Source: a virus
Strand: one strand, 5' to 3'
DNA: 20,493 bases
IMG/VR virus record: IMGVR_UViG_3300034119_000480
Location: 1-20,493 of that record
Shown here: piece by piece, positions 13,455 to 16,374 of the stretch
Layout: every line of letters begins with the position of its first letter
Numbering within the stretch: position 1 is the first letter of the stretch
Program-made: the position numbers and the translations under genes
The notes under the pieces: generated by a model
What the model was told of the DNA's origin: nothing
Databases searched by the model: none
Seen by the model: only the letters and a program-made list of their open reading frames with translations

Positions 13455-13964
13455 ATGGCAACCGCATCGAACATCCTCAAAAATTTCAACCTCTACGTTG
13501 ACGGGCGCGGCTTCGCAGGCGTCGTAGACGAGCTGCAACTCCCGACCCTCGGTCTCGTGGTCGAAGACTTCCGCGCTGGCGGCATGGACGCCTCCGTGGC
13601 CGTCGAAATGGGCCAGGAGAAACTTGAAGCCTCCTTCGTCCTCTCAGGCTACGAGGAAAATGTCCTGAATCTTTGGGGCATGGGGCAAGGCCAAACCGTG
13701 CCACTCGTGGCCCGTGGCGCTCTCGAAAGCCTCGACGGCGCAGTGACGCCCGTGGTGGTTTATATGAACGGCACGATCCGTTCCATGGAACCCGGTGCAT
13801 GGAAAGCTGGCGAGAAATCAACGATCAGCTTCACCATGGACCTTCGCAGCTACAAATACACGCAAGCGGGTCGGACCATCAACGACATCGATGTTCCAAA
13901 CATGGTTCGCATCGTGAACGGAGTGGACCGCCTCGCAGCACAGCGCAACGCAATCGGCATCTAA
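13455..13964 (+). CDS. FII: Tail tube protein FII
   Basis: The protein has 169 residues, close to P2 FII (172). N-I-L-K-N-F-N-L-Y-V-D-G-R-G-F-A-G-V-V-D-E-L-Q-L-P-T-L opens it, followed by E-D-F-R-A-G-G-M-D-A-S-V-A-V-E-M-G and a late D-L-R-S-Y-K-Y-T-Q-A-G-R-T-I-N-D-I-D-V-P-N-M-V-R. These are typical of the contractile-tail inner tube. It forms the hollow tube through which DNA passes. It lies 9 bases after the sheath and 12 bases before E. Confidence 0.95.
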   Translation: MATASNILKNFNLYVDGRGFAGVVDELQLPTLGLVVEDFRAGGMDASVAVEMGQEKLEASFVLSGYEENVLNLWGMGQGQTVPLVARGALESLDGAVTPVVVYMNGTIRSMEPGAWKAGEKSTISFTMDLRSYKYTQAGRTINDIDVPNMVRIVNGVDRLAAQRNAIGI

Positions 13965-13976
13965 TCCGGAGCAAAA

Positions 13977-14240
13977 ATGGCGAGCAAAAAATCCACCGTC
14001 GAAATCGCCCTCGATTTTCCAATCAAGATCGAAGGCGTGGAGTGCAGCCGACTCACCCTCCGCAGGCCGAAGGTTGGCGACATGCTGGCGGCTGAAGAAG
14101 GAAGCAAAGGACAGAGCGAACAAGAGACAGAGATTCTCGCCTTTGCCAACCTCTGCATGGTGACGCCCGTCGAAATCCGTGACCTCGACCTCGGCGATTA
14201 CAAGAAGCTGCAAAAAGCATTCTCCGGTTTTTTAGCCTAA
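13977..14240 (+). CDS. E: Tail assembly chaperone E
   Basis: The protein has 87 residues, close to P2 gpE (91). It has an acidic-basic helix-rich pattern with V-E-C-S-R-L-T-L-R-R-P-K-V-G-D-M-L and L-D-L-G-D-Y-K-K-L-Q-K-A-F-S-G-F-L, matching the phage tail assembly chaperone E/gp41 family. A good ribosome site, GGAG at 13968-13971, lies five bases before the ATG. E is the non-frameshifted product; it presumably binds the tape measure during tail assembly and is not part of the finished virion. Its last codons contain the slippery site for E+E'. Confidence 0.92.
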   Translation: MASKKSTVEIALDFPIKIEGVECSRLTLRRPKVGDMLAAEEGSKGQSEQETEILAFANLCMVTPVEIRDLDLGDYKKLQKAFSGFLA

Positions 14241-14362
14241 CGCGGGAGGACGCCATGCGCGGCACTCTCGCACTGGCCAGTCACACCGGATGGAGCCTCG
14301 CAGAGATCAGCGCAATGACCGCCGAGGAGCTTGTGGAATGGTGCGGGAAACTTCCTAAATAA
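13977..14362 (+). CDS. E': E+E' frameshift fusion, tail assembly chaperone
   Basis: Ribosomes that slip -1 on T TTT TTA (14228-14234) leave frame E after 86 codons and continue S-L-T-R-E-D-A-M-R-G-T-L-A-L to the TAA at 14360-14362, adding 42 residues for a product of 128. P2 E+E' has 142. The added part (H-T-G-W-S-L-A-E-I-S-A-M-T-A-E-E-L-V-E-W) matches the GpE family pattern of 'f.w...e...l...EL..W'. The frame is fully open across the junction. It would couple tape measure to tube proteins. Frameshifting is inferred from the slippery heptamer and the gene order, not shown experimentally. Coordinates cover both frames. Confidence 0.88.
14228..14234 (+). promoter_or_regulatory. -1 programmed frameshift site (T TTT TTA)
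   Basis: The heptamer is in the correct phase for X XXY YYZ slippage relative to frame E (TTT at 14229-14231, TTA at 14232-14234). The zero-frame stop TAA follows one codon later. P2 uses T TTT TTG at the same place. I do not see a strong stem-loop just downstream; a G-rich stretch and a Shine-Dalgarno-like GGGAGGA follow at 14244-14250. Confidence 0.88.
14244..14250 (+). promoter_or_regulatory. Shine-Dalgarno inside E' suggesting separate GpE translation
   Basis: GGGAGGA lies four bases before ATG 14255, which is in the -1 frame and would give a 35-residue GpE-only protein ending at 14362. It is one of the best ribosome sites in the window. E' might therefore be made both by frameshift and from its own start. 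Confidence 0.6.
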
Positions 14363-14364
14363 TC

Positions 14365-16374
14365 ATGGCGACCGAGAAAAAATTCAAAGCAACAATCGAG
14401 ATCGGCGGGGCCGTTGCTGGCTCGCTGAAGTCTTCGTTTGCAGCGGTCACGGGAAACACCAAGATTCTCGGCGCTTCCCTCTCAAAGCTGTCTTCCCAGC
14501 AAAAGAAGCTCAAAAGTTTCAATTCCGCACAACTGCGAATCGGCGAGACTCAGAAGAAGCTCATGCAGGCGATGAAAGCAGGCGACACATCCGGCGTGGA
14601 GCGCCTTCGCAAATCGCTCGATACGCAACGCCAATCGCTTGCAAAACTTGGCGAGGAACTCAAGAAAGCCAAGATCAACACGAATGACCTATCCGGCGAA
14701 ATGGAACGCCTCGGCAGGAAGGCGGACGCGACCCGCAAAGTGATGGACTCGTGGGGCAAGATCAAACCCATCGGCGACAACTTTCAGACTGTCCTCAAGC
14801 GCACCGCAGGCGGATTCGTTGCCATCGGTGCAGCAGCCGCCGCAGCCAGCGCAGGCGTGTGGAAAATGGGAACGGCCTTCGGCAACTTTGCAGACTCCGC
14901 AGCGGAAGGCGCGGCAACCCTTGGAACGGATGCAAATTTCCTCCTCTCGGTGCGCTACGCCGCAAGCCAAGTCGGAGCCTCCGCCGAAATGGCCGACAAA
15001 GCGCTTTCAGAACTAAACATCCGCATGGTCGAAGCGGGCGAAGACGGCAACAAGACGGGCGAAGCACTCAGCGAGCTTGGCCTAAACATCGGCAAGCTCC
15101 AAAAGATGGACACCGCTTCGCAGTTCGCAACGATCTCGCAGGCGTTTTCCAAATACACCGGCAGCGTCAACAAGGCCAAAATCGCCACAGACATCTTTGG
15201 CAAGGCAGGGCGCAAAATCCCGAACCTCCTCAACCTCGGCAAGGAAGGTCTGCAAGGCTACGCGCAAGCCGCGCAAGATGCGGGCTATCTTCTCAGCGAT
15301 TCCGACATGCTCATGGGCGATGCGTTCGATGAGGCAATGGGCCAATTCAACCTCGCCCTGCAAGGCTCACAAAACATCATCGGGCGCGAACTCCTGCCCG
15401 TCCTGACCGAGCTGATGACATCGCTTGGTTCATTCATCCGCGAAAACGCCCCAAACATCAAAGCCGTGGCGCAAGAGTTTGGCGGTTGGCTCAAAACTAA
15501 CGGCCCGATCATCGGCACGCAGATCCGCGACATGGCAAAGAGCCTGGTCGAAATGGGCAAGGCCGCTTGGCCATTCATCGAATCGGTGGGAGGCGTCAAA
15601 GCCGTGCTAATAGGAATCGGAACGATTGCCTTCGCACCAGCAATCGCCGCCGTGGCATCGCTTGGCGCTTCTTTTATCACCGCCGTTCCTGCGGTAATCA
15701 AACTGACAACGGGCCTCTGGGGCATGGCTGCGGGAGCCACGGGAATCATCCCGGCAATCGGAGGAGCAGCAACCGCACTCTGGGGCATGGCAACCGCAGG
15801 ATGGGCCGCAATCGCGCCGTTGTTGCCAGCCCTAGCCATCGGAGCGGCAATCATTGGCGGTCTAACACTCCTCGCGCTTGGAATTAAAAATGTCGTCGAA
15901 AACTGGGACTCATACTCAGCGAAACTTTATGAAGTTTGGGATGTAGCCAAAGCCTTCAGCGGTGGCATCTACGATTCAATTTCAGGCGCATTCGACCGGC
16001 TCACAGGCAAAATCGGCGCGTGGTTCGGATGGGTGCGCGAAAAATTCGTGGGCCTCGGCAGCTCAATCAAAGGCGTGTTTACCGGAGGCGACTCACCCGC
16101 ACCCATTGACGGAGCACGCGCAGCCGGTGGACCCGTCTCCGCTGGCAAAAACTACCTCGTCGGAGAGCGCGGCCCTGAGATTTTCAGCCCCTCATCCTCC
16201 GGCTCGATCATCCCCAACCACCGCGCAGGCGGCAGCGTGAGCAACGACAACCGCACGATCACCATCAACATCACCGCCTCCCCCGGCATGAACGAGCGCA
16301 CGCTTGCCGACCTCGTGCTCGCCCGCCTCGACGGACGCCAAGCCGCCATCGCTGGGGGAGCACTCTACGACTAA
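14365..16374 (+). CDS. T: Tail tape measure protein T
   Basis: The protein has 669 residues; P2 gpT has 815. Residues 1-130 are helical and coiled coil (K-L-S-S-Q-Q-K-K-L-K-S-F-N ... S-L-D-T-Q-R-Q-S-L-A-K-L-G-E-E-L). Hydrophobic segments lie at ~150-165 and across ~415-515 (repeated A-T-G-L-W-G-M-A type stretches), as expected for a protein that enters the host membrane. The C-terminal G-G-P-V-S-A-G-K-N-Y-L-V-G-E-R-G-P-E-I-F motif is the usual tape measure signature. At ~0.15 nm per residue, a fully helical chain gives a tail near 100 nm; this is an estimate. It follows E' by two bases and lies in the P2 position. Confidence 0.95.
   Translation: MATEKKFKATIEIGGAVAGSLKSSFAAVTGNTKILGASLSKLSSQQKKLKSFNSAQLRIGETQKKLMQAMKAGDTSGVERLRKSLDTQRQSLAKLGEELKKAKINTNDLSGEMERLGRKADATRKVMDSWGKIKPIGDNFQTVLKRTAGGFVAIGAAAAAASAGVWKMGTAFGNFADSAAEGAATLGTDANFLLSVRYAASQVGASAEMADKALSELNIRMVEAGEDGNKTGEALSELGLNIGKLQKMDTASQFATISQAFSKYTGSVNKAKIATDIFGKAGRKIPNLLNLGKEGLQGYAQAAQDAGYLLSDSDMLMGDAFDEAMGQFNLALQGSQNIIGRELLPVLTELMTSLGSFIRENAPNIKAVAQEFGGWLKTNGPIIGTQIRDMAKSLVEMGKAAWPFIESVGGVKAVLIGIGTIAFAPAIAAVASLGASFITAVPAVIKLTTGLWGMAAGATGIIPAIGGAATALWGMATAGWAAIAPLLPALAIGAAIIGGLTLLALGIKNVVENWDSYSAKLYEVWDVAKAFSGGIYDSISGAFDRLTGKIGAWFGWVREKFVGLGSSIKGVFTGGDSPAPIDGARAAGGPVSAGKNYLVGERGPEIFSPSSSGSIIPNHRAGGSVSNDNRTITINITASPGMNERTLADLVLARLDGRQAAIAGGALYD

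Follow-up and report, generated by a model that had tools for sequence, protein, structure and literature searches.

In phage P2 (NC_001895), the tail genes follow the order tube, E, E' and T, and a slippery run of six T residues, within the heptamer T TTT TTG, gives access to a -1 extension (E') that reaches gene T; the locus described here shares this order, the T6 run and the extension. RNA structure downstream of the slip site was reported to be absent in P2 as well as in KS5, KS14 and KL3 (PMC3091744), and P2 E' was reported to have no ribosome-binding site (PMC3931495). For Stenotrophomonas phage Smp131 (JQ809663), E, E+E' and E' are annotated as three coding sequences, a trio described in PMC3931495, and AGAGG is followed by an ATG 8 nt past the E stop. 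Its slip site, however, is a T7G that lies farther before the E stop than in the present locus, and its E' has another sequence. Jilinvirus ep3 carries a T TTT TTA heptamer identical to the one found here and a -1 extension that includes ALALASHTGW, while the tape measure chaperone of Burkholderia phage Mica, where the heptamer is AAATTTT, has an annotated frameshift product; both differ from the present locus in having no internal ATG at the corresponding position and an E that is just 42-46% identical. In siphophage lambda, slippage by -1 upstream of the tape-measure gene gives rise to the chaperone pair gpG/gpGT (PMC5009743), a system that is likened to E/E+E' by arrangement and from which protein roles can be transferred by analogy.

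The DNA analysed, referred to as the window, is a stretch of 20,493 bases from IMG/VR virus record IMGVR_UViG_3300034119_000480, in which Pfam and PHROGs searches revealed a contractile-tail module with homologues of P2 gpI, collar/fibre, sheath, tube, E, tape measure, U and D. On the + strand, an FII-like tail tube gene (13455..13964; PF04985, 182.9 bits) is followed by gene E (13977..14240), the zero-frame product of which is an 87-aa tail assembly chaperone matching PF10109 (74.2 bits against a cut-off of 25) and phrog_166, and by gene T, the tape measure gene (14365..16374, ATG at 14365; phrog_28 tail length tape measure, 2.9e-26). Gene E is therefore placed between a tail tube gene recognised by Pfam and a tape measure gene recognised by PHROGs. 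A profile search of E against solved structures gave no match. When genome contigs were searched with the tube protein, only two Holosporaceae MAGs were recovered, at approximately 40% tube identity, and the phage was therefore not assigned to a host.

The 3' end of E reads GG T TTT TTA GCC TAA, in which the heptamer T TTT TTA (14228..14234, + strand) stands in phase one codon 5' of the E stop (14238-14240). Slippage here would lead into a -1 frame that stays open for 42 codons (E', 14234..14362, + strand) and closes with the TAA at 14360-14362, two bases 5' of gene T. The predicted E+E' fusion has 128 aa and contains the junction ...S-G-F-L-S-L-T-R-E-D-A-M.... The original prediction, made from the window alone, had placed the heptamer in exact slippage phase at the end of E and a 42-codon open frame before T, and its coordinates proved correct throughout. 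Across the 24 ORFs taken as genes, 19 in-phase X XXY YYZ motifs were found, of which the E heptamer is the only one to sit just 5' of a stop and to open onto a long extension in the -1 frame. Under the codon usage of the window (TTT 33%, TTA+TTG 11.5%), the expected frequency of TTT-TTA/TTG for Phe-Leu is approximately 4%. As a separate observation, an in-phase A AAA AAT at 2810-2816, within the ORF 2211-2867, has a -1 extension of 92 nt beyond the stop, which is probably due to chance.

Slip site and open frame are both retained among viral relatives. An in-phase heptamer with an open -1 frame was found in all 36 close relatives, spelled TTTTTTA in 33, TTTTTTG in two and TTTTTTT in one, so that it stays slippery in every case. 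A sister clade (L068-L076, tube 73% identical) has the same arrangement with CCCTTTG, and the site has thus survived the exchange of T TTT TTR for C CCT TTG. In a wider set of 195 unique E genes, 130 have an in-phase heptamer together with a -1 frame open for at least 60 nt beyond the stop; nearly all of the wider relatives outside these 130 have the extension in the +1 frame. A codon-usage probability computed over 60 lineages was set aside as a test, as these lineages had been picked for carrying TTTTTTN. Given the match of E to PF10109, its position between tube and tape measure, and the heptamer and open -1 frame in relatives, the E/E+E' locus can be read, with a probability of roughly 90% on sequence evidence, as a P2-type tail-assembly-chaperone frameshift cassette. 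This agrees with the initial claim that the P2 E/E' system is reproduced here, and it extends that frameshift to an uncultivated clade with myophage-type tails from metagenomic virus records. The locus would be a new member of the known P2 E/E+E' system, a possible structural stimulator being its sole variation.

A fusion could also arise if the polymerase rather than the ribosome slipped on the T-run, and runs of T6 to T8 do exist among the relatives (L032 has T8). A T6 run is short for efficient polymerase slippage, however, and neither the CCCTTTG of the sister clade nor the AAATTTT of Mica is a long homopolymer. Codon phase is, moreover, preserved throughout the relatives. Transcriptional slippage was accordingly considered highly improbable as the source of the fusion, and ribosomal slippage was retained as the preferred explanation.

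Substitutions within E' have the pattern expected of a translated frame. Read in the -1 frame, the variants divide into 25 synonymous and 13 nonsynonymous changes; the two remaining frames give 1/34 and 6/30. By comparison of relatives, then, slip sites were shown to be conserved and the -1 frame to be coding under purifying selection. In an alignment of 40 E' sequences, Leu2, which lies 5' of the internal Met, is at least 90% conserved; such conservation ahead of the Met would be expected if E' is translated as part of a fusion. These observations bear on the proposal that E' is a separate gene, translated by coupling alone, next to which the heptamer is incidental. E' is indeed short and near the E stop, and some P2-like records annotate it apart, but in-phase slippery sites recur across many lineages, the residues between slip site and ATG are conserved as protein, and an ATG at the position it has in the window is missing from most lineages, all of which leaves this proposal barely credible.

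AlphaFold2 modelled E' as a domain of three helices with a mean pLDDT of 94.7, the first helix spanning residues 4-18. The extension had been described as GpE-like, a label that held only in part. Pfam GpE (PF06528) scores 15.8 bits on the window E', under its 23-bit cut-off, as compared with 79.6 bits for P2 E', and the label consequently rests on position and weak similarity. Searches of Pfam, NCBIfam and the PDB with E' for a family or fold gave matches below cut-off or no significant match. Separately, 31 of 39 aligned E' sequences have a match in PHROG 10636, a family listed without a function; it probably represents the frameshift extension of the tail chaperone, annotated as an ORF of its own.

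Folding of the RNA downstream of the slip site predicted a hairpin with a 5' arm GCGGGAG (14242..14248, + strand), which begins 7 nt past the heptamer, and a 3' arm CUCUCGC (14265..14271, + strand), with pair probabilities of 0.5-1.0 depending on the stretch folded. The spacer of 7 nt fits the 5-9 nt usually studied between heptamer and stem (PMC5009743). The most marked stretch was the 40 nt 3' of the slip site, with a z of -2.5 against dinucleotide shuffles; the longer stretch 14236-14330 showed no excess stability (z +0.94). Under a synonymous-codon null, which keeps the E' protein and the codon usage of the genome, p was 0.046 for the window and 0.001-0.008 for the sister clade. For 76 unique sequences whose slip site precedes the stop by one codon, the mean z was -1.24 against -0.20 for control coding windows. 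This enrichment had a p of 0.0009 when related sequences were collapsed to 30 clusters and 0.023 with 13 clusters, and was not significant with six (p 0.1). Lineages in which the slip site lies 12-39 nt before the E stop (L135, L141, L160 and others) had, as a group, no excess downstream structure, and the two arrangements of the slip site may stimulate slippage differently.

Support for one particular stem across clades was mixed. When the named stem was compared with slid versions of itself, the proportion of cells paired was highest in register (72.9%, the next being 64.7%), and the covariation measures were not highest there. RNAalifold across clades returned no consensus structure and no pairs, individual folds placed the stem in different registers in different clades, and the stem was not predicted in the close relative L032. 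The claim that the stem of the window covaries strictly between clades was accordingly dropped, given the absence of RNAalifold pairs and an in-register optimum on cells paired only. On these models, we consider a hairpin probable in the sister clade; for the window, where the signal is marginal (p about 0.05), it is plausible. The hairpin offers a testable candidate stimulator in a family said to have none.

The 5' arm of the predicted hairpin contains most of the Shine-Dalgarno (SD)-like GGGAGG, and the original prediction had taken GGGAGGA (14244-14250) and the ATG at 14255 as the start of an independent 35-residue GpE, giving three possible products from the locus: E, E+E' and GpE alone. 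Such a GpE would require either initiation or termination-reinitiation at that ATG. The sequence elements themselves were confirmed (14244..14257, + strand), the ATG opening a 35-aa ORF 14 nt past the E stop, and the candidate start was assessed by SD energy, folding and clade distribution. Several properties would favour initiation. The predicted anti-SD energy at GGGAGGA is -10.3 kcal/mol, stronger than that of every gene start taken in the window and attained by approximately 1% of random window positions; the ATG is predicted to be unpaired; the ATG is present in 36/36 close relatives and GGGAGGA in 35/36; and Smp131 carries an annotated E' with AGAGG-ATG. The 36 close relatives are, however, so alike that an ATG common to all of them is no independent evidence. 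Folding also predicted the SD-like site to be mostly paired, with a mean unpaired probability of 0.14 over 14244-14249.

Alignment of relatives, which had been put forward as a check on the conservation of both elements, bore out the heptamer, which is broadly kept, but not the start. Met at the position of ATG 14255 occurs only in the clade of the window, in L181-L188 and in L266; in the sister clade, in spite of its 73% tube identity, the residue is Leu and there is no ATG, and in most other lineages it is Arg. Where Met is present in L181-L188, the SD is weaker (-4.0 to -5.9), so that GGGAGGA and a strong SD are confined to the clade of the window. The GGGAGGA bases encode a conserved R-E-D, and the sole variant among the close relatives (GAGAGGA in L015) is synonymous, weakening the SD while replacing a G.U pair of the stem by A-U. 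In the AlphaFold2 model, the Met in question (Met8 of E') falls within helix 4-18.

The strength of the SD is also a poor guide to initiation in this phage. The sheath, tube and U starts (12339, 13455 and 16380) have no Shine-Dalgarno sequence, as is the case for most confidently placed starts, and nearly all close relatives begin E with no strong SD. This suggests that the host initiates largely without Shine-Dalgarno sequences, and as E, sheath and tube start without a strong SD, the presence of one is no evidence of a start here. Since the pair of SD and ATG is clade-restricted, the SD bases are explained by R-E-D coding and the predicted hairpin, most confidently placed starts are SD-less and the Met lies inside a predicted helix, GGGAGGA-ATG is probably an incidental by-product of the surrounding protein and RNA sequence. 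An independent GpE, and with it the set of three products, was consequently judged unlikely. Nor is the arrangement unusual, as had been claimed, because alignment by eye places a Met of P2 E' against that of the window (DDLM / EDAM), at the point where PF06528 begins, and the Smp131 trio with AGAGG-ATG was already annotated. What sets the window apart from P2 is the predicted hairpin and the SD-like site before the Met, together with an E' below the Pfam GpE cut-off. The case advises caution in naming an internal SD and ATG as a gene start when coding and RNA structure explain the bases. A more elaborate proposal, which we regard as less likely again, is that in this clade GCGGGAGG would act both as the 5' arm of a slippage-stimulating hairpin and as the SD of a real short GpE, exposed when ribosomes finish E. 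Ribosomes would then either frameshift or reinitiate, and the balance between the two would fix the E : E+E' : GpE ratio and, via coupling of T to the end of E', how much tape measure protein is made.

Under the preferred two-product reading of the locus, we infer slippage and its efficiency, the effect of the hairpin, the coupling of T and the roles of the proteins as follows. Most ribosomes would translate the 87 aa of E and terminate at 14238-14240, while a minority would slip by -1 on T TTT TTA (14228-14234) and read E' to give the 128-aa E+E'. The hairpin 14242-14248/14265-14271, 7 nt past the slip site, probably pauses the ribosome and increases slippage. GGGAGGA would simply encode R-E-D where it overlaps the 5' arm of the hairpin, and ATG 14255 would be an ordinary Met codon in helix 1 of E'. 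On the model of lambda gpG/gpGT, as described in PMC5009743, both E and E+E' would coat the tape-measure protein T, with the E' domain recruiting tube subunits. Ribosomes reading E' would finish two bases 5' of the T start, which makes translational coupling of T to E' probable; the SD at T is weak or absent in the clade of the window and in the majority of the other relatives with a computed value.

A further group of relatives, the prophage records L193-L260, has no -1 heptamer and carries an E' homologue in the +1 frame at 64 loci. Their putative shift site is a conserved TCC/TCT TTT CGA or TAC TTT CGC at about codons 70-76 of E (E from locus 1501), and the conserved +1-frame extension ends in WWL-[TAN]-D. 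A -2 shift would enter the same frame as a +1 shift. For KS10, a Mu-like Burkholderia phage, no frameshift site was reported (PMC2628397). This +1-frame group may merit a study of its own more than the -1 frameshift of the window does. Within it, TTT and CGA are minority codons (18% of Phe and 14% of Arg, respectively), and the shift site resembles the +1 site of influenza PA-X.
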